From the NCBI RefSeq assembly GCF_000189775.2, contig NC_015555.1:2057001-2121000 (forward strand): a stretch of 64,000 nucleotides of DNA, written 5' to 3'. This DNA is from Thermoanaerobacterium xylanolyticum LX-11 (GTDB lineage Bacteria; Bacillota; Thermoanaerobacteria; Thermoanaerobacterales; Thermoanaerobacteraceae). The notes beneath the pieces were generated by a model. The model did not search any database and was not told the origin of the DNA. It worked only from the letters and a program-made list of their open reading frames with translations. The position numbers were made by a program, and so were the translations under genes. This document shows, one piece after another, positions 24,237 through 53,394 of the stretch (its first letter is position 1; every line of letters starts with the position of its first letter).

Positions 24237-24432
24237 AAAAAAGGCTTCACATCACAAAGAGACGAAAGCTACGCTTCCGTGGTACCACTCTTTTTGACGC
24301 AAGCCCACTTATTTCATATAACGGTACAGCCGTGCATACTTTTAATATGCATGCTCAATGGCGAGTTCAGCTAACACAATGCCCTTTCCCACCGTCATAA
24401 GGCTCTCTGAAAAAGTCTTAGCCTACTACTCC
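24237..24432 (-). promoter_or_regulatory. T-box riboswitch, leucine specifier CUC
   Basis: Minus-strand leader of leuS. The T-box core (AGAGUGGUACCACGG, 24291-24277) sits in an antiterminator: AAAGAG/CUCUUU, a UGGUACCA bulge, then CGGAAGC/GCUUUCG around gua. The competing terminator pairs GCUUUCGUC with GAUG(U)GAAGC and ends in CUUUUUU. Stem I shows AGUA, AGAGA and GGUGGGAAAGG elements, and the specifier loop reads GAA-CUC-GCC with CUC at 24365-24363. Confidence 0.93.
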
Positions 24433-24503
24433 ACATCATTGCATTAACAATATATATTTATCAATATTTTATTACAAATGCTCTTAAAATGCAATATGAT
24501 AAA

Positions 24504-30136: not shown

Positions 30137-31192
30137 TCACACATATGCCAATATTTCCTTTAAAACATCCTGTAGCGGCACTTGAACATCATATAGCTTG
30201 GCTTCAAAAACTGCTTTTGGCATTCCATAAACAACGCATGTCTCTTCAGATTCGATAATGACATGCCCTCCATATTTTTTTACTGATTTACATCCAACAA
30301 GGCCATCATTGCCCATTCCAGTAAGTATAACAGCTAATAAATGCTCTTTATAAATCGGTGCTGCAGAATTTAGCGTAACATCAACTGATGGTTTGTATAA
30401 AATATTATCATCTGAGCTTTCTATAATTTTAAAAACAACTTCATTATCATTTTTTATATGCAAAGTAGTTTGAAATCCTGACGGAGCAATATAAATGTTG
30501 CCAGCCTGTAAAATTTCCCCTTCTTCTGCTTCTTTTACATGAAGTTGGCAGAATGTATCAAATCTTTCAGCTAAAGACTTAGTAAAACCGGGAGGCATGT
30601 GTTGGAGAACAAGTACAGGAACAGGCAAATCTGGTGGAAAATTAGGTAGTATAGATTGCAAAGCGACCGGTCCTCCTGTAGATGTACCTATGATAATTAT
30701 ATTTACTTTTGCCTTTGGTTTATCATTGCTAAGCTCTCTTTTATTAACCATTTCGTCTTTATTAATTTCTGAACATTGTTTTTGTATTTTTTTGCTTTCT
30801 ATTACATTTATCAACTTATTTATAAAATTATCAATAATCTTGTCATCAACATCTTGATTGATTAACTCGCTTTTCAGAAAAAAATCTTCTGCACCTGCTT
30901 CTAACGCTTCTATAGTAGGTTCAGCACCTTCCTCTGTATAATTGCTCAACATTACAATAGGTATATTATACAATTCTTTAATCTTTTTAAGAGCCATAAT
31001 ACCATCCATATTAGGCATTTCAATATCCATAGTTATTATATCCGGATTAAGATTTTGAACTTTTTCTATCGCTTCATATCCGTCTCTGGCGATTCCTACA
31101 ACAGAAAGTTTAGGGTTCTTTTCTATAATTTTAGTAATACACTTTCTCATAAAAGACGAATCATCTACAACTAAAACACCAAACTTTTCCAC
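30137..31192 (-). CDS. cheB: Chemotaxis response regulator methylesterase CheB, 351 aa
   Basis: Removes methyl groups from (or deamidates) chemoreceptors when phosphorylated by CheA. Receiver domain at 1-120 with VDDSS and phospho-acceptor Asp56 (TMDIEMPNMDG); linker with charged residues; catalytic domain about 160-351 with the triad in IIIGTSTGGPVAL (Ser), VLQHMPPGFT (His) and TGMGNDGLVG (Asp). GTG start with AAAGGGATGAT; the gene begins 4 bp after cheR. Last gene of the chemosensory operon. Confidence 0.95.
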   Translation of the reverse strand: MEKFGVLVVDDSSFMRKCITKIIEKNPKLSVVGIARDGYEAIEKVQNLNPDIITMDIEMPNMDGIMALKKIKELYNIPIVMLSNYTEEGAEPTIEALEAGAEDFFLKSELINQDVDDKIIDNFINKLINVIESKKIQKQCSEINKDEMVNKRELSNDKPKAKVNIIIIGTSTGGPVALQSILPNFPPDLPVPVLVLQHMPPGFTKSLAERFDTFCQLHVKEAEEGEILQAGNIYIAPSGFQTTLHIKNDNEVVFKIIESSDDNILYKPSVDVTLNSAAPIYKEHLLAVILTGMGNDGLVGCKSVKKYGGHVIIESEETCVVYGMPKAVFEAKLYDVQVPLQDVLKEILAYV

Positions 31193-31196
31193 TATA

Positions 31197-32009
31197 TCAT
31201 CCCTTTCTTTTATAATAGAAAACAGAAGGCTTATGTATTACTTCAAATCCACTGTGAATACCAGTTATTGACTCAGCATGACCTAATAACAAGTAACCGC
31301 CAGGATTTAAAATTTTGTAAAAATCGTTGATTATTTTTCGAATTGCATGTTCATCAAAATATATTAAAACATTCCTACAAAATATAATATCACATTTTCC
31401 TATTTTCTCTTCAAGATCCTTATCCAAGAGATTTATTCTTTTAAATTCTACCATTTTGGCAATTTCATCTTTAACTCTATAATATTCTCCATGATCTATA
31501 AAAAATTTGTCGTATACATAATTAGGAGTTCTCCTAAACGATAATGAATTTTTCTTATAAAAACCTTTTTCAGCTTTTTCCAATACCTTTTTATTAATGT
31601 CTGTAGCAATAATTTTAACTTCATGGTTTTTTAATAAACCACTGTCTTCAATTAACATACCGATCGTGTACGGCTCCTCACCCGTCGAACAAGCGGCAGA
31701 CCATATGCGCACATTATTGTTTGCAGAATTAATATATTCAGGCAAAATTGAGTTCTTAAATTCTTCTAACAAATTTTCTTCTCTAAAAAAATACGTTTCG
31801 TTCACAGTTATTAATTCTATTAACACATCCAATTCTTCTGGTTCCATTTTGATATATCCAAAATATTCCCAAACAGATAGCCCTAATTCTTTAATCCTTG
31901 TTTCAATTTTTATCTTGAGATTGTTTAAATTATTTTTATAATCAATGCCACAAAAATCGTATATAAAATTAGCCAATTCCCCTAAATAATTCTGTTCATT
32001 TGTTATCAT
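31197..32009 (-). CDS. cheR: Chemoreceptor glutamate methyltransferase CheR, 270 aa
   Basis: S-adenosylmethionine-dependent enzyme methylating receptor glutamates. N-terminal helical domain (1-75), then the methyltransferase core with NETYFFRE, IWSAACSTGEEPYTIGML (SAM site), IIATDINKKVLEKA, and DIIFCRNVLIYFD. No C-terminal receptor-tether-binding extension beyond the beta-subdomain. ATG chosen with AGGGG nine bases upstream rather than the TTG three codons before, which overlaps it. Preceded by a 17-bp hairpin after the receptor gene. Confidence 0.95.
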   Translation of the reverse strand: MITNEQNYLGELANFIYDFCGIDYKNNLNNLKIKIETRIKELGLSVWEYFGYIKMEPEELDVLIELITVNETYFFREENLLEEFKNSILPEYINSANNNVRIWSAACSTGEEPYTIGMLIEDSGLLKNHEVKIIATDINKKVLEKAEKGFYKKNSLSFRRTPNYVYDKFFIDHGEYYRVKDEIAKMVEFKRINLLDKDLEEKIGKCDIIFCRNVLIYFDEHAIRKIINDFYKILNPGGYLLLGHAESITGIHSGFEVIHKPSVFYYKRKG

Positions 32010-32031
32010 ATTTATCAACCCCTAAACAAAA

Positions 32032-32071
32032 TTTGTACTATTGAAGAATATAACTTCTTCAATAGTACAAA
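32032..32071 (-). terminator. Attenuator-like hairpin between mcp and cheR
   Basis: TTTGTACTATTGAAGAA (32032-32048) and its perfect complement (32055-32071) form a 17-bp stem with a 6-base loop; on the minus strand it is followed by TTTTGTTT. It should stop part of the transcription after the receptor gene, giving more receptor than CheR/CheB. Confidence 0.65.
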
Positions 32072-32076
32072 ATATA

Positions 32077-34488
32077 TCATATTTCAAAGCCTCTTAATGT
32101 ATTTTTTATTTGTTCCACATTACTAAGAAGTTCCTCAGTAGTATCGATAGATTTTTCAACATCCTTGCCATTTAAACTTAATAAAGTGCTAAATTCTTTT
32201 ACAAATGCCGCAACTTGCTTAAATTCTGAGGTTTGTTTTTTTATTAACTCTTCAATTTGTTCTGCTTGTTTATTTATAACATTTGAATTGTTCATTTCTT
32301 CGCCGATATTTGCATTTATTTCTTTTGCAACCGCCGCTATTTGTCTTACTTGCTCTCTTGCATTGTTTACTCCTTGTACTATTTCTTCTACTCCTTTTGC
32401 TTGTTCTTTTGTCGCTTGACTTACCTGCGCTGCTTGATTTGTTATATTTTCTACTGCTATTACTATGTTTTGCCCTTGATTTCTCTGCTCTTTTGTAGCA
32501 GCCGCTATCTGTCTTACTTGTTCTCTCGCATTGTTTACTCCTTGTACTATTTCTTCTACTCCTTTTGCTTGTTCTTTTGTTGCTTGACTTACCTGCGCTG
32601 CCTGGTTTGTTATATTTTCTACTGCTATTACTATGTTTTGCCCTTGATTTCTCTGCTCTTTTGCAGCCGTCGCTATCTGTCTTACTTGTTCTCTTGCATT
32701 GTTTACTCCTTGTACTATTTCCTCTACTCCTTTTGCTTGTTCTTTTGTCGCTTGACTCACCTGCGCTGCTTGGTTTGTTATATTTTCTACTGCTTCTACT
32801 ATGTTTTGCCCTTGATTTCTCTGCTCTTTTGTGGCCACCGCTATCTGTCTTACTTGCTCTCTTGCATTGTTTACTCCTTGTACTATTTCCTCTACTCCTT
32901 TTGCTTGTTCTTTTGTCGCTTGCCTTACCTGCGCTGCCTGGTTTGTTATATTTTCTACTGCTATTACTATGTTTTGCCCTTGATTTCTCTGCTCTTCTGC
33001 GGCTAATGTGACTTCGTTAATCTCATTATTTATTTCTTCTATTCCTTCAACAATTTTTTCTATTACTATACTCATATCATTGCTTAACTCAGTTCCACGC
33101 TTAGCCTTATCTTGCCCTACTGCAATTGCTTTCACTGCTTGTTCCGTCTCTTTTTGAACATTCTTTATTAGAGCAGCTATCTCTTTTGTAGCTGTAGCTG
33201 TTCTTTCAGCAAGTTTTCTAACTTCATCTGCTACTACCGCAAACCCTTTGCCATGTTCACCAGCCCTTGCAGCTTCTATCGCTGCATTTAAAGCTAACAA
33301 ATTGGTCTGTTCTGCAATATCATCAATAACTTCCGTAATACTTCCTATTTTTTCAGAACTTTCTCCTAAATTATTTATTACATTTCCTGTAAGATAAATT
33401 GCATCAGTAATATCTTTAATAGAAGATAATGTTTCTTCTACCGATTTCCTGCCATTTTGTGCTTCAGTCTTTAGCGAATCGCTTAATCTTTTAATATTTT
33501 CAGTACTGTTAGCTACTTGATTGATCGATGCTACCATTTCTTCTATCGCCGCCGATGTTTCTTCTGCTGATGCTGACAAACTTTCTGCGTTTCCTGCTAC
33601 TCCTTTTATCGACTTGCTTATCTGCTCTATCGATGCTGATATCTGCTCTACTGAACTTGCTGTGCTTTCGCTATTGCCTGCTACTTGATTTATTGATGCT
33701 ACCATTTCTTCTATCGCTGCCGATGTTTCTTCTGCTGATGCTGACAAACTTTCTGCGTTCCCTGCTACTCCTTTTATCGACTTGCTTATCTGTTCTATCG
33801 ATGCTGATATCTGCTCTACTGAACTTGCTGTACTTTCGCTATTGCCTGCTACTTGATTTATTGATGCTACCATTTCTTCTATCGCTGCCGATGTTTCTTC
33901 TGCTGATGCTGACAAACTTTCTGCGTTCCCTGCTACTCCTTTTATCGACTTGCTTATCTGCTCTATTGATGCTGATATCTGCTCTACTGAACTTGCTGTG
34001 CTTTCGCTATTGCCTGCTACTTGATTTATTGATGCTACCATTTCTTCTATCGCCGCTGATGTTTCTTCTGCTGATGCTGACAAGCTTTCTGCATTCCCTG
34101 CTACTCCTTTTATCGACTTGCTTATCTGCTCTATCGATGCTGATATCTGCTCTACTGAACTTGCTGTACTTTCGCTATTGCCTGCTACTTGATTAGTAAG
34201 ACTGTATAACTTTTCCAAAGAATTATTAGCCTTATCGACAAACTTAACTAATTGCCCTACACTTTCTTCTACATCATTAATCAATCCAGCTAACTCTTCA
34301 GTACCTATTTTAGTTGATTCTATTGTTGTTGACTGCTCTTTTAATCCACTAAGTATCTTATTGGTTATATCTACAAATTTTCCCAATTTGCTGTCAATAT
34401 CATCTACAGCATAAACTGCTCTCTTTAAATTTTCATGATATGTCGTACCTTTTATCAATTTTTTTGCAACATTTTCCTTAAAACTCAT
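32077..34488 (-). CDS. Soluble giant chemoreceptor with symmetric 4x56-residue repeats in both coiled-coil arms, 803 aa
   Basis: Methyl-accepting chemotaxis protein with no membrane segment and no recognisable ligand domain. Residues 1-100 are helical. Residues 101-324 are four 56-residue repeats ([11 protein letters not shown]... ...EEMVASINQ), identical in protein sequence. Residues 325-500 are a single-copy core with the universal hairpin tip ([23 protein letters not shown], tip Glu at about 411). Residues 501-724 are four more 56-residue repeats of a different sequence (RNQGQNIV... ...REQVRQIA), differing at a few positions. Residues 725-803 are a helical tail. The core has 86 residues before and 89 after the tip, so the two arrays are in register across the antiparallel hairpin. 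ATG with GAGGAGG upstream. Part of the cheWA-mcp-cheRB operon. Family certain; length exceptional. Confidence 0.95.
32317..32988 (-). repeat. Four 168-bp tandem repeats encoding the C-terminal receptor arm
   Basis: Four in-frame 168-bp units (residues 501-724 of the receptor), each two 28-residue halves (eight heptads). Copies differ at a few amino acids ([32 protein letters not shown]) and several silent sites, so they are older or less homogenised than the other array. Confidence 0.95.
33517..34188 (-). repeat. Four 168-bp tandem repeats encoding the N-terminal receptor arm
   Basis: Four in-frame 168-bp units (residues 101-324), identical at protein level and separated only by scattered silent changes such as gcc/gct in Ala codons. 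This pattern indicates recent duplication or ongoing gene conversion. Each unit is eight heptads long, the same as the C-terminal arm units, though unrelated in sequence. Confidence 0.95.
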
Positions 34489-34537
34489 TGTTGTACCTCC
34501 TCAAATTTTTATTTAATATTTTTATACAAATTCTTTG

Positions 34538-36562
34538 TCACAGATTTTTTTTGGACGCAGTTGTTTTCACAATTCCAGCAACATCCAAAATACATGCTAC
34601 ATTTCCATCACCTAAAATAGTTGCTCCAGAAAAAATATCAAGTTTTCCTATGTATGAGCTAAAATTTTTAACTACAATTTCTTGATTGCCAATAAGTTCA
34701 TCAACGACAAGTCCAAATCTTTTTTCGGCAATACCTAAAATTACGATGATAATATTTTTATTTTTTCTCTTTCTAGGTACTCTAAAATAATCATGCAGCC
34801 AAATTAGTGAAATTGTTCTTTCTCTAATAATTACAACATCTTGCTTTTTAACTTTTTTTATTTCTTTTTCATTTAACCGTACAATCTCTATTACATTGCT
34901 TACTGGAATAGCATATATTTCATTATTTATTCGTATTAAAAGTCCATTCAAAATAGCCAACGTCAATGGAAGTTTTATTATAAACTTTGTACCTTCCCAT
35001 TCTTTTGTTTCAACTTCTATAACTCCATTAAGTTTATTAATATTATTGCGAACAATATCCATCCCTACTCCACGCCCAGAAATGTCACTGACACTTTGAG
35101 ATGTAGAAAATCCAGGTTTAAAAATTAGCTCTAAAATTTCTTTTTCATTTAATAAGTCTGCATCCTGACGTGAAATTATTCCCTTTTTTAATGCGACTTC
35201 TTTAACCTTATTCAAATTAATTCCACGTCCATCATCTTGAACTGTTAGAATAAACTGATTTTCTTGATGATATGCATTGACTCTTATAGTGCCCTTAGGA
35301 CTTTTACCTGCTTTTAAGCGCTCATCAGGTGTTTCTATTCCGTGATCAGCAGCATTTCTGATTAGATGTACTAATGGATCTGCTAAATCTTCAATTATAG
35401 TTTTATCTAATTCTGTATCTTCACCTTCTATAACTAACTCAATTTCTTTATTAAGAGAATTTGATAAATCTCTTACTAAACGTGGTATTCTGCTAAATAA
35501 TTGTTTAATAGGCAGCATGCGAACTTTTAATACTAATTCTTGAAGCTCATTTGTTATCCTTGATATCTGATTTGAAATTTCTTCTAAATCCTCAAAAGAA
35601 TTATCTGAATTGTATCGTTCATGCAATGAACTAACAATTTGAGTAATTCTTGATTTCTCAATTACAAGTTCGCCAACCATCTCCATCATTTTTTCTAATC
35701 TGCCTATGTCCACTCTAACTGTTTGATTTGCCTTATTTTTTGTCTCATCTGGGGTTTGTCCTTCATAAACATTAGATTTTGTCACGTTGTTGACATTATC
35801 TAATTGGCTATTTATTAAACTTAAATCAAACAAATCTACATTAAAGCTTTCAATCTCCAACATTCTATCTAAAACTCTAACTTTTAATTCTTCTTTATCA
35901 AATTCAGTAATCAACAAATACGAAATATTTTCTACATCAATATTATCATTCACATCTGTCATATCAGGTTCACTTTTAATAACAGTACCCAATTGATTTA
36001 AAAAATTTAAAATCAAAAAAGCACGTATAGCTTTCATAGCGCAATCTTTTTTTAATTTCACTTCACATACAAACACATTTAAACCAGATGCTGCAGCTTG
36101 TTGTGCTTGAATTTGTTGTTCTAAATCGAGTTTAAATTCTTTATTTGTTTCTGAATTCATATTTTCCTTCAATAATTGATCGTCTGACATGTATTTGTGC
36201 AACTCCGATAATATTAAAGTTATATCAGTTTTCATTTCTCCATTTGAAGAAAATTCTTCTTTTAGACTTTTCAACACATCTAAACATCTAAAAAGAACAT
36301 CTATCACTGGCTTTGCTACTTTAATGTTACCGCTTCGTATCTTGTCTAACACATCTTCCATTTCGTGGGTCAAAATTTTCATTTTTTCAAATCCCATTGC
36401 TGCAGACGATCCTTTTAGTGTATGTGCTACCCTAAATAATGTTTTTATTATTTCATCGTCATTTGCATTTTGTTCTAGCTTAAGAATATTTTCTTCAAAA
36501 AGTTGCAGTTGCTCATCAACTTCGTCAAGAAAAGCTCTGATGAATTCCGGAGTATCATACAA
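34538..36562 (-). CDS. cheA: Chemotaxis histidine kinase CheA, ~674 aa
   Basis: Kinase that phosphorylates response regulators under receptor control. Order: Hpt/P1 domain with phospho-His47 (RVAHTLKGSSAAMGF); P2-like region (about 155-255); P3 dimerisation helices (RVDIGRLEKMMEMVGELVIEKSR); HATPase with HLIRNAADHGIE, DDGRGIN and SGRGVGMDIVRNNI; and a CheW-like P5 domain at the C-terminus. The TTG with GGAGGTG six bases upstream is chosen; the longest frame's ATG lies 33 bp earlier inside the end of cheW. 49 bp before the receptor gene. Confidence 0.94.
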   Translation of the reverse strand: MYDTPEFIRAFLDEVDEQLQLFEENILKLEQNANDDEIIKTLFRVAHTLKGSSAAMGFEKMKILTHEMEDVLDKIRSGNIKVAKPVIDVLFRCLDVLKSLKEEFSSNGEMKTDITLILSELHKYMSDDQLLKENMNSETNKEFKLDLEQQIQAQQAAASGLNVFVCEVKLKKDCAMKAIRAFLILNFLNQLGTVIKSEPDMTDVNDNIDVENISYLLITEFDKEELKVRVLDRMLEIESFNVDLFDLSLINSQLDNVNNVTKSNVYEGQTPDETKNKANQTVRVDIGRLEKMMEMVGELVIEKSRITQIVSSLHERYNSDNSFEDLEEISNQISRITNELQELVLKVRMLPIKQLFSRIPRLVRDLSNSLNKEIELVIEGEDTELDKTIIEDLADPLVHLIRNAADHGIETPDERLKAGKSPKGTIRVNAYHQENQFILTVQDDGRGINLNKVKEVALKKGIISRQDADLLNEKEILELIFKPGFSTSQSVSDISGRGVGMDIVRNNINKLNGVIEVETKEWEGTKFIIKLPLTLAILNGLLIRINNEIYAIPVSNVIEIVRLNEKEIKKVKKQDVVIIRERTISLIWLHDYFRVPRKRKNKNIIIVILGIAEKRFGLVVDELIGNQEIVVKNFSSYIGKLDIFSGATILGDGNVACILDVAGIVKTTASKKNL

Positions 36563-36581
36563 TTTATACACCTCCTGCCTG

Positions 36582-37016
36582 TCAATGCTCCGCATTTAAC
36601 AATTTATCGATTTTCATTATTGCTATAACTTCGCCATCTTGTGTAATTCCTAACCCTTCAAAATAATTTCCACTTATTTCGTCTACTGTTTCAGGAGTCG
36701 GTTGAATATCGGAAAACTTTGTGACCTGAATTACTCTATCAACGATTGTGCCAACTAATTCGTCATCAAATCTTAATATTACGATACGTGTTGATTTAGT
36801 ATCAGAATAATCTTCAAGTCCCAATATTCGATGTACATTAATGACTGGTACAATTTTTCCACGCAAATTTATAATACCTTCTAAATATGCTTTGCTATTA
36901 TGCAAATAAGTGATTTTTTTAAATCGGATAATTTCATACACTTCATTTATCTTTATTGCATATTTTTCTCCGCACAATTCACATACAACATATTGGTAAT
37001 CTAATAATTCATTCAA
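36582..37016 (-). CDS. cheW: Chemotaxis coupling protein CheW, 144 aa
   Basis: Two SH3-like subdomains linking CheA to receptors: QYVVCELCGEKYAIKINEVYEIIRF, YLEGIINLRGKIVPVINVHRILGL and FDDELVGTIVDRVIQVTKF are the family's marks. TTG start with GGAGGG eight bases upstream. Its last codons run into the ribosome site of cheA. Confidence 0.94.
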   Translation of the reverse strand: MNELLDYQYVVCELCGEKYAIKINEVYEIIRFKKITYLHNSKAYLEGIINLRGKIVPVINVHRILGLEDYSDTKSTRIVILRFDDELVGTIVDRVIQVTKFSDIQPTPETVDEISGNYFEGLGITQDGEVIAIMKIDKLLNAEH

Positions 37017-37068: not shown

Positions 37069-38106
37069 CTAACTTTTAATATCTCTATAAATTTTGCTAA
37101 AAAGTTCTGCTATGTATGGATCAAATTGAGTTCCTGCATTCTTTTTTATCTCTAAAATTGCCTGGTCAATTTTTAGTGCTTTTCTATATATGCGGTCATT
37201 TGTCATAGCATCAAAGGCATCTGCAACTGACAAAATACGGCAAAACAATGGGATCTTTTCTCCTTTCAACCCATGAGGATATCCATTTCCATCCCATCTC
37301 TCATGATGGTACAATATGTATTTTGCTATTGTCTTTAACTCTGGTATATTTGAAATAATTTCATATCCTATTTCTGGATGTTTCTTTATTTCGGTCCAAT
37401 CACTATCTGTCAACGGTTCACGCTTTTTAAGAACACTTTCGCTTATGCCTATTTTGCCTATATCGTGTAATATTGCCAAAAGAGCTAACTCATTAAGTTC
37501 TTTCATTGAAAGGTTCATTTCCTTTCCAATAATAAGACAATGGTCTTTTAGCCTCTTAGCGTGTTCCTCAGTTTCCCAACTTTTAAAATGTAATGTGGCA
37601 AGAATTGCATTGACAACAGTACTTCGATGACTCGTGTTCATTACAAACTTTTGTCTATTCATTTCTTCTTCTGCATCTTTTATTGCTTGAATAATTGAAT
37701 TCTCAGAACTACGCTTTGAAGATATTCCAACAGCTACACTCAACTGTTCATCTTTTTTGATTAACTTTATTTTAGTTGAAACAATTGTTTCAATTTTTTT
37801 TGCTGCATTTTCCATGTTGCTGTCATACATGAGTACTAAAAATTCATCTTCTCCCCATCTTGCAATAATATCATTATTTCCCAAACCATGTTTCAACTCA
37901 TTTGCAAGACTTCTTAAAAGCTTATCACCTTCTCTATACCCAAATGTATCATTAATCATTTTAATGCCATTAATATCTAGCATAACTACTGCTATTGAAG
38001 TGTTTTTAAAATTATCTAATTCGCTTAGCTTTTCTTCAACATATTTTCTGGTGTAAAGGCCCGTTAATGGATCATATATATCTATTTCCATATTTTTTGA
38101 ATCCAT
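37069..38106 (-). CDS. GGDEF plus HD-GYP protein (c-di-GMP synthesis/degradation), 345 aa
   Basis: Residues ~8-165 are a GGDEF domain (DPLTGLYTRKYVEEKL; DINGIKMINDTFGYREGDKLL; active-site motif as WGEDEF, with Glu in the second position). Residues ~175-345 are an HD-GYP phosphodiesterase with HDIGKIGI, HPEIGYEI, YHHERWDGNGYPHGLKGEKIP and DAFDAMTNDR, all ligands intact. No receiver, PAS or membrane segment is present. The HD-GYP half is predicted active; cyclase activity is uncertain because of GEDEF. ATG lies ten bases after GGAGGTG. It is the first gene of the chemosensory operon and lies downstream of a c-di-GMP riboswitch on the same strand. Confidence 0.9.
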   Translation of the reverse strand: MDSKNMEIDIYDPLTGLYTRKYVEEKLSELDNFKNTSIAVVMLDINGIKMINDTFGYREGDKLLRSLANELKHGLGNNDIIARWGEDEFLVLMYDSNMENAAKKIETIVSTKIKLIKKDEQLSVAVGISSKRSSENSIIQAIKDAEEEMNRQKFVMNTSHRSTVVNAILATLHFKSWETEEHAKRLKDHCLIIGKEMNLSMKELNELALLAILHDIGKIGISESVLKKREPLTDSDWTEIKKHPEIGYEIISNIPELKTIAKYILYHHERWDGNGYPHGLKGEKIPLFCRILSVADAFDAMTNDRIYRKALKIDQAILEIKKNAGTQFDPYIAELFSKIYRDIKS

Positions 38107-38260
38107 TTCATGCTTTCACCTCCCTCGTATAATATGATTTGTAATCAACTAAAAAGATCGATCTTTAAAAAGATTACAAAATTTAATTGAACCTTGATAA
38201 TTGAATATTGTTTTTTAATTTCGTTATTATTAGCTCTCTCAAGTGCCACTTGATACTTAT

Positions 38261-38382
38261 GCATACATCGCATAACTACTATCTATGTTTGGAATGATGG
38301 ATTGTCAAGCCCGAACGCAGTGAGTTTATTTTAGGCTTGACTATACATCGGCCAAACATATAATCTTCTATACGATGTATGC
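38261..38382 (+). ncRNA. Candidate IS110 bridge RNA: rod of three nested stems
   Basis: Three perfect nested inverted repeats: GCATACATCG/CGATGTATGC (38261-70, 38373-82), TATGTTTGG/CCAAACATA (38284-92, 38352-60) and GTCAAGCC/GGCTTGAC (38304-11, 38334-41). They leave two near-symmetric internal loops of 13/12 and 11/10 bases and a 22-base apical loop. Further stems follow at 38430-38497 and 38587-38610. IS110 transposases use an RNA from the noncoding end with internal guide loops, so this is a candidate; it could instead be an unrelated fold. Confidence 0.4.
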
Positions 38383-38723
38383 TGGATCACTGCATTTTGC
38401 ATTTGTGGTACACGAATTCCCTCTTTCTTCTTCAGGTTGTCTCTGTTAAACTATTTTTAGAATTTGGTTTCAGGGTCGCTCTGAAAACCTCCTGAAGACC
38501 CTACTTTAGGGTACTTCTCGTCTAAGACTGCACCCCTGGGATTACTCGTTTAGTTCTGACTCGCTTGCTGTCCATATCATACTCTTCCGTATGTTTCAGC
38601 ATCCATACGGTGTATCCTATGAGTATTGATATAGTTCTGATATCGCGAGGCTGTTTCTCGGTAATCTGTCAGGGATTAACCTGGTACTGGTTCTCAATTT
38701 TTTTAATGAAAGGAGGAATTTAC

Positions 38724-39957
38724 GTGCCCAGTACTTTATTCGTCGGTATAGACGTAAGCAGTCAATCTAATTCTGTTTTCTTTATTGATCAAGATGGCAA
38801 TAACCTCATTAAGAAACCTTTTTCGGTTTCTAATGATATCCCAGGTGCTTTGTATCATCTCTGAGGTGATTTCTCATGCTAACGCTATTAATGCTTCCTG
38901 TGTCAAAATTGGTATGGAAGCCACTTCTCATTATGCATGGCACCTCCATCTTCACCTGGCTTCTTCTCCTGACCTGGCACCTTTTAACCCTAAATTCTTT
39001 GTTATGAATCCAGGTGTCGTCAAGGGTTTTAAAAAGGCTTATACCTATTTGCCTAAAACTGACGATTTTGATGCCAGAATCATTGCTGATTGTGTCAGAT
39101 TCGGTAGGGTAAACCCTACTCCTATGCCTGACTTTAGGTATGCTGCGCTACAGCGCCTTACTCGTTTTAGATACCATCTGGTACAAACTATATCCAGTGA
39201 AAAGAGCAGAGCTTTGAACCTCCTTTATCTCAAGTTCTCTTCATACAAGGAAGACTGTCCTTTTAGCGACGTCTTTGGCTCAGCATCTACTTCTGTTTTT
39301 GATTCTTTTACTCCTGATGAGATCGCTGTTATGCCTGTGGAGGAACTTGTAGATTTTGTCTTGAGTCATGGCAACAATAGATTGAAAAATCCCGAAGAAA
39401 TTGCTAAGACACTTAAGTCTGCTGCTAATAGGGCATATCGTCTTAATCCTTACATGTGCGATACTGTTAGCATGACTTTGACCATGACTCTTGAAAATAT
39501 AAGATTTCTTGAGTCACAACTTAAAAAACTTGACAAAGAAATCTCTAAACAGCTTAATGGCTTTCACCAAACTCTGACTACTATTCCAGGTTTCGGTAAT
39601 GTATTAGCCGCAGGCCTTGTGGCTGAGATTGGCGATGTTAAGCGGTTTAAAAATGAATGCGCTGTAGCTAAATTTGCAGGCCTCGTGTGGAATAAATATC
39701 AATCTGGCAACTTTAGTGCTGAAGATACCTCTTTAGCTAAGTGCGGTAACCAGTATTTAAGGTACTATCTTGTAGAAGCAGCTAATTGCGTAAGGATACA
39801 CGCAAAAGAATATGCTGATTTCTACTGCAAGAAGTACAATGAGGTTACAAAACACCAGCATAAAAGAGCCCTCGTCTTAACGGCACGTAAGCTTGTAAGA
39901 CTGGTCTTTGCTATGCTGAGTAAAGGCCAAATCTACCAACCAGGAGGTAATGGATAG
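38724..39957 (+). pseudogene. IS110-family transposase with a +1 frameshift
   Basis: DEDD/RuvC-like transposase. The GTG at 38724 follows AGGAGG by seven bases and reads MPSTLFVGIDVSSQSN (first Asp) up to PGALYHL, then hits TGA at 38862-38864. The homologous continuation SEVISHANAIN...GMEATSHYAWHL begins in the next frame at the same place and runs to 39957. It contains the rest of the catalytic set (GMEAT, DDFDARIIAD) and the Tnp_IS116-type C-terminal domain (TIPGFGNVLAAGLVAEIGD; the Ser-containing region follows). Together ~411 residues, a normal length. One extra base near CATCTCTGAGG explains the break. Probably inactive unless it is a sequencing error. Confidence 0.85.
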
Positions 39958-40173
39958 ATTTAATAAGTATTTTTAACTGAATATACTCTAAGTTCCTTCC
40001 ATTATTATCCAATTTATGGTAGGTTTATTAAGTGTTGCCTTTTTTAGAGCTTTTGAGACCTTTATTTTTCAAGGTTCCAAAAAATACTACTTGACATTAC
40101 ACCGCTTGTCTCATAAATAATATTTAATTTTATTGCATCATCTTTTCTACTCTAATTTCATCGATTTATAAAT

Positions 40174-40206
40174 AAAAAAATAGGATAACCACATGGTTGC
40201 CCTATT
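40174..40206 (-). terminator. Intrinsic terminator of the c-di-GMP riboswitch
   Basis: On the minus strand AATAGG-gCAACC and GGTT-atCCTATT pair, followed by seven Ts. Its 5' arm contains GGCAACC, which can instead pair with GGTTGCC of the aptamer's closing helix. Confidence 0.85.
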
Positions 40207-40218
40207 TCAATTAGTAAG

Positions 40219-40298
40219 CTGGCAACCCGGCCATCTTAGCAGAATCTGCTTTAGACCCGTGGCTTTGCGTCCTTATCTTTCGATAAGTTTGCTCTTTT
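40219..40298 (-). promoter_or_regulatory. Cyclic di-GMP-I (GEMM) riboswitch
   Basis: Minus strand. Hallmarks in order: GCAAAC opening of P1 (40292-40287), P2 closed by a GAAA tetraloop (CTTATC-GAAA-GATAAG), GGACGCAAAGCCACGGG, the P3 arm AGCAG/CTGCT, and GATGGCCGGGTTGCC closing P1 (ends 40221). It matches the class I consensus closely. The next gene downstream on its strand, beyond the antisense IS110 element, is the GGDEF/HD-GYP gene. The rest of the gap 39958-40513 is the IS right flank and the recombinase leader. Confidence 0.93.
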
Positions 40299-40330
40299 CA
40301 AGTTCATATTGTTATTCAAAATAGTATAAT

Positions 40331-40366
40331 GTAACAATATAATCATTTTGTTACATTTAATAAGAT
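40331..40366 (+). repeat. Left recombination site: 24-bp core plus 12-bp arm
   Basis: The core (40331-40354) begins GTAACA and ends TGTTAC; it is imperfectly palindromic, with central AATC. It is the exact reverse complement of the core at 41178-41201. ATTTAATAAGAT (40355-40366) follows, and is repeated in direct orientation after the right core. It lies 33 bp upstream of the riboswitch start. Confidence 0.9.
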
Positions 40367-40513
40367 TATAATATATTTGATACATAAGCATTTTAAACAA
40401 TTAATTTAGTGTTTTTATATATATCTATATACAAATCAATGTATCTTTTTTATAATAACTATGTAATCATTTTGACATTATAGTTAAATTATTAATAATT
40501 AGGAGGAAAAATT

Positions 40514-41074
40514 ATGACAGTTGAACCTATACGAGATAAAGTTAAAATAAAGCAAATGTATTATTATTTACAAGGTAAAGATCCTAAATACGGTTTGCTT
40601 TTTAAATTTGGCTTAAATACTGGCTTAAGGATTAGTGATATTTTACCTATAAAGGTCAATGACATTTATACAAGCAATTTTAATTTTCGTGAATATCTTA
40701 CTATTAAAGAGAAAAAAACTGAAAAAGAGAAAAAAATTAAAATTAATGAATCATTAAAAAAGGAAATTGATAAATACATAAAATTAAGATGCTTAAAATA
40801 TGATGATTATTTATTTCCAAGCAATAAAGGCGGACATATAGGAAGAATTCAAAGTTACAGAATTTTAAAAGAAGCCGCTGAAATTGTTGGTGTCGAAAAT
40901 TTTGGTACTCATAGTTTGAGAAAAACTTGGGGTTATTGGAGTTATAAAACATCGCGTTATAATATAGGCTTAATAATGGATACTTTTAATCATAGTTCCC
41001 AAAAAATCACTTTAAGATATATCGGCGTAAATCAAGAACAGAAAGATGAATTATATACATTGGTTCAATTTTAA
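40514..41074 (+). CDS. Single-domain tyrosine recombinase (FimB/FimE-size), 186 aa
   Basis: Catalytic domain of a tyrosine recombinase without the usual N-terminal core-binding domain. Visible residues: Arg in GLNTGLRISDIL, Lys in the EKKTEKEKKI hairpin, H-x-x-R in THSLRKTWG, a His in DTFNHSSQ, and the nucleophile Tyr in LRYIG. The size and layout are like FimB/FimE and clostridial inverting recombinases. ATG with AGGAGG upstream. It lies alone between a perfect pair of 24-bp inverted sites, 159 bp and 103 bp from them. Confidence 0.88.
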   Translation: MTVEPIRDKVKIKQMYYYLQGKDPKYGLLFKFGLNTGLRISDILPIKVNDIYTSNFNFREYLTIKEKKTEKEKKIKINESLKKEIDKYIKLRCLKYDDYLFPSNKGGHIGRIQSYRILKEAAEIVGVENFGTHSLRKTWGYWSYKTSRYNIGLIMDTFNHSSQKITLRYIGVNQEQKDELYTLVQF

Positions 41075-41177
41075 GCAAAAAATGTCATAGAAATTTTTGT
41101 AATAAAATCTTTAAAATTTTGTTATATTATGCAGGATTTTAGATTTTTCTGTCGAATAAGAGAATATGTTGTAATAA

Positions 41178-41213
41178 GTAACAAAATGATTATATTGTTA
41201 CATTTAATAAGAT
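41178..41213 (+). repeat. Right recombination site: inverted 24-bp core plus direct 12-bp arm
   Basis: The core (41178-41201) is the perfect reverse complement of 40331-40354, with central GATT. ATTTAATAAGAT follows (41202-41213) exactly as at the left site. After it lies a hairpin, AAGATACC...GGTATCTT (41210-41233). The rest of the gap 41075-41435 shows nothing else but the aminotransferase terminator. Confidence 0.9.
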
Positions 41214-41389: not shown

Positions 41390-41435
41390 AAAAAAAGTTT
41401 AAAACCCATGGGACTTATATCCATGGGTTTTAAAC
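41390..41435 (-). terminator. Terminator of the aminotransferase gene
   Basis: GTTTAAAACCCATGG and CCATGGGTTTTAAAC form a 15-bp perfect stem with a 9-base loop, followed by Ts on the minus strand. It abuts the stop codon. Confidence 0.88.
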
Positions 41436-42605
41436 TTAAAACTTCTTCATAAACTCCCTTATCCTTTTTACTGCCTCTTTTAGATTTTCCATCGATGTGG
41501 CATAAGACATTCTTATGTATCCCTCGCCATGCTCACCAAATGCGCTTCCTGGCACTGCTGCAACTTTCGCCTCATATAAAAGCTTTTTGGCAAATTCTAA
41601 CGATGTTAGTCCAGTCTCTTTGATCGATGGGAAAATGTAAAATGCTCCTTTAGGTTCAAAGCACTCAAAGCCCATATCAATTAAGCTTGAATACAAAAAT
41701 TTCCTTCTTTCATCGTATTTCTCCCGCATAAATTTTACATCGCCATCGCCATTTCTTAAAGCCTCCAATCCTGCATATTGCGATTGGGTCGATGCTGATG
41801 TGACATCGTACTGATGTATCTTTGTCATGTGCTTTACAAAATACTCCGGTGCTGCTATATAGCCAAGCCTCCATCCAGTCATGGCATAAGACTTAGAAAA
41901 GCCATTTATCAAAACAGTCCTTTCCCACATTCCAGGCAGTGACGCAAAACTTACATGCTTAAAGCCATCGTAAACCAGTTCAGAGTATATCTCATCCGTC
42001 ACAACCAGCAAATCGTGCTTTAATACTACTTCAACCAATTTCACCATTTCCTCATAAGGCATGACAGCTCCTGTTGGATTATTCGGATACGGCAAAATCA
42101 AAACCTTCGATCTCTCCGTAACATACTTTTCTAACACATCTGCTTTTAAGACAAAGTTATCTTTTTCATATGTAGGAACAAAGACAGATTTGCCACCAGC
42201 TAACTTTGTACACGGATCATAAGCCACAAATGACGGCTCAGGTATCAAAACTTCATCTCCATCTTCCACAAGAGTATTCAATGCTATGTAAATAGCCTCC
42301 GTCGCACCGATTGTGACAAGTATCTCACCATCAGGCTTATACTCTACATCACAACTTCTTTTAAGATATTTTGATATCTCTTGCCGTAATTCTATAAGCC
42401 CAGCATTTACAGTATATCCAGTTTTACCTTCTAATAATGAGGCATACGCTGCATCGATTATGTGCCTTGGTGTGACAAAATCCGGCTCCCCGATCGTCAG
42501 CGATATAGCACCAGACACTTCTTTTGCCATATTAAAAAAATATCTTATTGTAGATATCTCTATAGATTTTGCACGCTTTGAAACTCTATCTTCGAAATCC
42601 ACCAT
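41436..42605 (-). CDS. Class I/II PLP-dependent aminotransferase, 389 aa
   Basis: Fold-type I aminotransferase of the aspartate/aromatic (PatA/AspC-like) group. Key features: LTIGEPDFVTP near the N-terminus, PYPNNPTGAVM (Asn/Pro contact), DEIYSELVYDG, the PLP-lysine in GFSKSYAMTGWRLGY (about residue 235), and the carboxylate-binding Arg in GYIRMSYATS. Substrate cannot be fixed from sequence. It is monocistronic, with a strong terminator, and lies between the recombinase and the xylose cluster with no evident link to either. Confidence 0.9.
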   Translation of the reverse strand: MVDFEDRVSKRAKSIEISTIRYFFNMAKEVSGAISLTIGEPDFVTPRHIIDAAYASLLEGKTGYTVNAGLIELRQEISKYLKRSCDVEYKPDGEILVTIGATEAIYIALNTLVEDGDEVLIPEPSFVAYDPCTKLAGGKSVFVPTYEKDNFVLKADVLEKYVTERSKVLILPYPNNPTGAVMPYEEMVKLVEVVLKHDLLVVTDEIYSELVYDGFKHVSFASLPGMWERTVLINGFSKSYAMTGWRLGYIAAPEYFVKHMTKIHQYDVTSASTQSQYAGLEALRNGDGDVKFMREKYDERRKFLYSSLIDMGFECFEPKGAFYIFPSIKETGLTSLEFAKKLLYEAKVAAVPGSAFGEHGEGYIRMSYATSMENLKEAVKRIREFMKKF

Positions 42606-53050: not shown

Positions 53051-53300
53051 AAAAGCCTTCCACCCCAAATGTAGGGGCGAAAGGCTATGCTTCCACGGTG
53101 CCACCCTTATTAAGACAATATGTCTTATCTCTAAGCACACCAACATGTGCATCACATATAACGGTGTTTACCGGCTCGGCTACTACACTTCACCTCACAT
53201 CTCACAGGCCCATTCGCTAAAGCTATAATAATCAGGCTCACACCATCCCTGACTCGCTTGTATTAGTCGCTCAAGCTACTATTCCTGATCATCGAAGAAT
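53051..53300 (-). promoter_or_regulatory. T-box riboswitch, tryptophan specifier UGG
   Basis: Minus strand leader of trpP. T-box core AGGGUGGCACCGUGG at 53107-53093; terminator AGCCUU..CGCCCC pairing GGGGUG..AAGGCU then UUUUU (53086-53051). Stem I has AGUAG and GGGAUGGUGUGAG-like elements, and the specifier loop reads GAA-UGG-GCC with UGG at 53212-53210, the same frame as GAA-CUC-GCC in the leuS leader. It fills most of the gap 53014-53434. Confidence 0.93.
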
Positions 53301-53394
53301 CTTTTATTTTTTATCATTATACAGCAATAAAATGGATTTGTCAATCATTTTTTAAATTTTTGGACAATAATCGCATTTGAAATTTTATTGCAAT

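Follow-up and report, generated by a model that had tools for sequence, protein, structure and literature searches.

Within the analysed stretch of 64 kb from a thermophilic clostridium (hereafter the window), a segment of ~0.87 kb is very probably a self-contained inversion switch, which is run by the recombinase gene enclosed in it and serves a signalling operon led by a riboswitch. The inversion of the segment is well supported. According to the proposed mechanism, the recombinase of the segment would act on both inverted sites and the segment would flip. In the present orientation, a sigma-H-type promoter by the right site would fire away from the target, toward a hairpin (OFF), and after the flip it would drive the transcription of the riboswitch, the GGDEF-HD gene, and the che operon, the riboswitch terminator letting transcription pass at low c-di-GMP only. 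Expression would thus depend on three serial inputs, namely orientation, sigma-H activity, and c-di-GMP.

A broader reading is held with moderate confidence. The segment would belong to a Clostridia-wide set of self-encoded inversion cassettes for chemotaxis and c-di-GMP, with shared arms, a private 6-bp core which would prevent recombination with paralogs, and often a sigma-H promoter, and the three-input gate at the stationary-phase transition would decide the entry into a motile or a sessile state.

Crossover sites and the enclosed recombinase

The sequence GTAACAATATAATCATTTTGTTAC at 40331–40354 has its exact reverse complement at 41178–41201, as a previous reading made from the sequence only had stated. 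The match of 24 bp lengthens by 3 bp to a perfect 27-bp pair, that is, a left crossover site at 40328–40354 and its reverse complement, the right site, at 41178–41204. The left site has the arms ATGTAACA/TGTTAC and a central 6 bp of TAATCA. Within the window, this pair is the sole perfect inverted repeat of at least 16 bp with a span of 0.2–3 kb, and thus it is not attributed to chance. In the whole genome (2.53 Mb in a single contig, with closest relatives in Thermoanaerobacterium), only two pairs, both bearing a recombinase, depart from the site pattern by one mismatch at most. Since there is no other pair within this limit, targets acted on in trans in the own genome were rejected.

Just beyond the arms, the sequences at 40355–40366 and 41202–41212 are directly repeated, though the cores are inverted. 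Such direct repeats are found at both sites of the two copies in the own genome (the one in the window and that of L002) and are not family-wide.

The single gene between the sites, in accordance with the sequence-only reading, encodes a tyrosine recombinase of 186 aa (40514–41074, plus strand). It is an intact ORF which consists of the catalytic domain only and is presumed to invert its own segment. Residues 22–174 match Pfam Phage_integrase (7.7e-20) and include the R, H-x-x-R, H, and Y of tyrosine recombinases. In the alignment of relatives, these residues (R39, H133-x-x-R136, H160, and Y169) do not vary, so the recombinase looks functional. The predicted fold matches XerA, XerH, and integron integrase. 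Against the NCBIfam model of FimB/FimE-type tyrosine DNA invertases (NF007371), the protein scores 30.7 bits with a cut-off of 222; it would work like FimB but is not classed as FimB by NCBIfam.

Upstream of the gene, a putative recombinase promoter and leader (40422–40513, plus strand) contains an ATGTATC-type half-site near a TATAAT. A second half-site-like motif (ATGTAACA/ATGTATC ... TTACAT) overlaps, by eye, the −10 region of the recombinase in many relatives. Autoregulation or autorepression of the recombinase through the leader half-site is possible.

The second recombinase copy of the genome (C1:38938–39492) is 82% identical and is flanked by an inverted pair of its own, whose spacer differs. 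The leader between this second switch and its MCP gene (L002 2395–2690, ∼C1:39.8–40.1 kb) holds a two-part repeated element, which is MITE-like and occurs dozens of times in congeners. The leader was considered as a new riboswitch and rejected because of the absence of any Rfam match, the weak fold (z −1.3), and the repeated element.

The cassette family and its inversion

Relatives were gathered from 61 genomes (the own one included) and from 61 named contig loci. For each locus, the best inverted match over 28 bp flanking the gene served as the score, and 22/28 or better was taken as a pair. At identities of at least 59%, 51 of the 55 assessable genome loci have an inverted pair of their own around the recombinase, and the four loci without a pair score 19–21 of 28. 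Four loci were set aside because their flanks were masked or ran off a contig. None of the 10 relatives at 30–52% identity has a pair, and their scores of 17–20 are at the level of chance.

In every one of the 50 aligned pairs, both sites have the same central 6 bp. Between loci, four of these six positions agree in only 24–44%, and mismatches within pairs reach 30% at the outer positions of the arms. As the pairs were picked by overall similarity, a high mean is expected, but mismatches in the arms with none in the centre are not. Judged from these alignments, such a pattern resembles that of a strand-exchange overlap in which identity is required. Paralogs of the same genome have different cores.

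The same cassette occurs at ∼50 other loci across Clostridia, before chemotaxis and c-di-GMP genes. On the 5′ side of the recombinase, the 75 proteins compared with Pfam include CheW (16), MCP signal (13), HD (13), EAL (8), Hpt (8), GGDEF (7), response regulator (5), and FapA (4). On the other side, 86 proteins are spread over 139 families, none of which exceeds 3, with no enrichment in signalling. Three cassettes (L027, L071, and L083) were read as flipped, and there the signalling gene is found 3′ of the recombinase. This one-sided enrichment, together with the paired sites and the natural inversion described below, supports the earlier proposal that the switch governs the riboswitch-led operon to its left.

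The clearest inversion is that of the fapA locus of Thermoanaerobacterium. Four loci (L026, L034, L076, and L077) share one orientation, and L027, from the single-contig genome G001, has the opposite one. In the frame of the recombinase, the L027 segment is identical to those of L026 and L077 at 900 of 907 positions, and the flanks are swapped and reverse-complemented at 92–95% identity over up to 1.3 kb. Homologous targets are also found on opposite sides in L083/L084 and L058/L071, which are weaker cases with 67% nucleotide identity. All orientations were called from assemblies.

For the window locus itself, the orthologs L022, L028, and L087 all have the orientation of the window, and thus we infer flipping here from the other copies and from the breaks of another assembly, G002. 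In this genome, the operon-side contig (C28) ends with ...TAGTATAATG (...TAATG) and the aminotransferase-side contig (C11) starts with CATAAAACATATACC (CAT...). These ends are the exact outer edges of both sites, and the segment with its recombinase is absent from the assembly. The contigs of L048 and L088 likewise end at a site. Since a repeat of ∼27 bp on its own would not be expected to interrupt an assembly built with long k-mers, a G002 culture holding both orientations is the likeliest explanation; another assembly cause could also have produced the breaks. Overall, the flipping proposed in the sequence-only reading is well supported by the site pairs of the 51 relatives, the natural inversion, and the assembly breaks.

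The presence of one gene between terminal inverted repeats also recalls a small mobile element that transposes near signalling genes, with inversion as an incidental property. Two copies per genome here, a patchy distribution, and distant relatives (<60% identity) in phages and plasmids are in line with such an element. However, the termini match within each copy and differ among copies, the insertion is non-random (signalling genes on one side and in one orientation), the promoter architecture is conserved, and inversion in place is observed. In addition, the cassette flanks show no general direct duplication, as the family-wide test gave 6.64 against 6.63 expected, of 20; on this chance-level count, the direct repeats outside the arms were rejected as a trace of integration. 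A mobile element is therefore very unlikely, and the inversion switch is preferred.

A clean empty site was not found among the congeners examined. G002 was rejected as an empty site because the breaks at the sites place its operon and its aminotransferase gene on different contigs. G006, which has the aminotransferase gene without an adjacent switch, was likewise rejected, as it is not a clean empty site.

Predicted outward promoter, riboswitch, and proposed target operon

A predicted outward sigma-H promoter, GCAGGATTT-N11-GTCGAAT, is located at 41131–41157 (plus strand), 20 bp inside the right site. It adjoins the 3′ end of the recombinase gene and is currently directed away from the riboswitch. 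It matches exactly the sigma-H consensus RNAGGAWWW and RNNGAAT (PMC8510167), with a spacer of 11 nt. The sigma-H model was applied after the motif had been noticed in the cassettes, and the consensus itself is independent (PMC8510167). With the segment inverted, the core of the promoter would move to 40375–40399 (minus strand) and precede the riboswitch by 72 nt.

Both outward ends of 53 cassettes were scanned against dinucleotide shuffles with a threshold of z > 2. At the 3′ end of the recombinase, sigma-H-like promoters exceed it in 23 of the 53 and sigma-A-like ones in 14. At the 5′ end, there is one of each type in 53 cassettes, which is no commoner than in shuffled sequence. Of 54 right ends (together 5.6 kb), 13 contain the exact sigma-H pattern; it is absent from the rest of the segments and, in 32 kb flanking the right sites on the outside, is seen once on each strand. 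Roughly half of the loci are without a clear sigma-H site and have a sigma-A-like or weak promoter only.

In the own genome, the sigma-H pattern occurs 77 times, versus 30 for the reversed pattern. It precedes genes read by eye from their translations as spoVG, dnaG, hpf, and sigE, and sigma-H itself is encoded (369 bits). The TGTCGAA at the 3′ end was also read as a Spo0A box. As it stands at a fixed distance of 11 nt from AGGAWWW, which is the sigma-H layout, this was dropped as the main reading; an overlap of the motif with a 0A box is possible.

In the sequence-only reading, the promoter was the TATAAT at 40370–40365 (minus strand), and the present orientation was ON for the riboswitch operon. 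The hexamer exists, and the AT-rich region by the operon could hold a weak promoter. However, no −35 can be recognised for the hexamer, and the orthologs L022, L087, and L028 do not conserve it. Outward promoters on that side of the 53 cassettes are, as mentioned above, at the level of shuffled sequence. Moreover, in the inverted cassette of G001 it is the 3′-end promoter that faces fapA. A promoter at the TATAAT, with the present state ON, is judged very unlikely.

The conserved promoter is the one at the 3′ end, and not the hexamer at 40365. As it is directed to the right, at a hairpin, the window is predicted to represent the OFF state of the switch. This terminator-like hairpin past the right site (41395–41437, z −6.5) had been recognised previously and is real. 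It would halt OFF-state transcription ahead of the convergent aminotransferase gene.

The c-di-GMP riboswitch previously placed to the left of the segment is also present. Its c-di-GMP-I aptamer (40218–40303, minus strand) lies beyond the segment, toward the target, and scores 85 bits with RF01051, against an Rfam gathering score of 35. Riboswitches of the c-di-GMP-I type are located between site and target at ∼10 loci, that is, the window, L025, L036, L039, L040, L059, L067, L078, L079, and L092. Two T-box leaders are also found on the minus strand of the window (24255–24448 and 53070–53301).

The expression platform after the aptamer is an intrinsic terminator (40172–40208, minus strand) of the form AAUAGGGCAACC-AUGU-GGUUAUCCUAUU-U7. 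The aptamer strand GGGUUGCC is able to pair with GGGCAACC of the terminator, which suggests that c-di-GMP would favour termination, with readthrough only at low c-di-GMP. Such termination would be a negative feedback on the gene of the GGDEF-domain protein.

The first gene of the target operon encodes a GGDEF-HD protein of 345 aa (37069–38106, minus strand; domains assigned by Pfam in the ortholog). The rest of the operon (30137–37016, minus strand) consists of genes named from their sequences: CheW (36582–37016), CheA (34538–36595), MCP (32077–34488), CheR (31197–32018), and CheB (30137–31192), all on the minus strand.

The earlier description of this operon as the target led by the riboswitch holds, but it missed an IS110-type insertion element of 2 kb (38123–40111, plus strand; transposase ORF 38785–39957). 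This insertion separates the riboswitch from the operon and lies directly ahead of the ribosome-binding site that serves the GGDEF-HD gene. The genome has further full copies at C1:2161072 and C1:1922445 as well as a split one near C1:1.02 Mb, and the orthologs L036 and G002 are without the element. In this position it may leave the switch partly uncoupled, and it may have weakened or broken the coupling of riboswitch and operon in this strain.

The same element, together with the broken recombinases of related species, would fit a degenerate, locked relic, that is, a segment which no longer inverts or matters here and has been uncoupled by the insertion. For instance, the gene is truncated with loss of the left site in L029 (G003), has a stop in L031 (G005), and is frameshifted in NTOU1 (L087/L028). 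These cases suggest repeated locking of the switch among congeners. The window, however, has an intact recombinase, perfect sites, and a sigma-H promoter at consensus, which suggests recent selection or use. A locked relic is therefore unlikely, and a switch still able to invert is the preferred reading.

Relation to known inversion systems

The E. coli recombinases FimB/FimE and IpuA/IpuB are tyrosine recombinases of ∼190–200 aa which consist of the catalytic domain only and flip promoter segments. The recombinase of the window, with 186 aa, has the same composition. Hin of Salmonella is a serine recombinase; its segment has an outward promoter, and the Hin switch is not known to have a riboswitch or a sigma-H promoter. 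Unlike Hin, the enzyme of the window is a tyrosine recombinase, and it is accompanied by a riboswitch and a sigma-H-type promoter. As in the phase 2 flagellin switch, where the Hin gene is inside the invertible segment (PMC5903667), the recombinase gene of the window is inside its segment. The E. coli ipuS element is 260 bp long, with adjacent recombinase genes, and overlaps only the end of ipuA (PMC6083910), whereas here the gene is enclosed.

Invertible promoters near signalling genes are already known in Clostridia, as is the combination of inversion with c-di-GMP riboswitches in C. difficile flg and cmr. For the former, Sekulovic et al. 2018 report, from reads, invertible sites by signalling and chemotaxis genes of Clostridia, with examples from Anaerotignum, Desulfitobacterium, and C. 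thermocellum, and their text assigns to these sites neither a recombinase family nor a common site, promoter class, or cassette design (PMC5903667). A group of Clostridia invertons tied to a tyrosine recombinase group (PMC11892184) could overlap with the cassette family. In the open-access literature, no description was found of a self-encoding cassette with a locus-specific core and a sigma-H promoter; as the search was restricted to this literature, the absence is not proof of novelty.

If the broader reading is true, one leader joins random DNA inversion, a stationary-phase sigma factor, and c-di-GMP sensing, and the ON/OFF state is predictable from sequence. The site family would also be a test bed for the way in which core identity separates paralogous switches of tyrosine recombinases. 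Phase variation of signalling is known mainly from C. difficile, with RecV acting from afar, and it would reach many non-pathogenic, thermophilic, and environmental Clostridia through a portable one-gene cassette.

The RecV switches of C. difficile, that is, pdcB (Cdi2), the flagellar switch (Cdi4), and cmr, are similar to the window in the clostridial inversion by a tyrosine recombinase and in targets related to c-di-GMP and motility. The promoter is within the segment in pdcB and cmr, and a c-di-GMP riboswitch is paired with the invertible element in flg and cmr (PMC9286219, PMC5386303, PMC8844915). The flg and pdcB segments are short (154–174 bp), in contrast to the segment of the window. 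Compared by description, RecV inverts cwpV and flg and is encoded elsewhere, whereas here a recombinase is inside each segment. Unlike the RecV switches, the cassettes share their arms, have a locus-specific core of 6 bp, and often carry a promoter of the sigma-H type.
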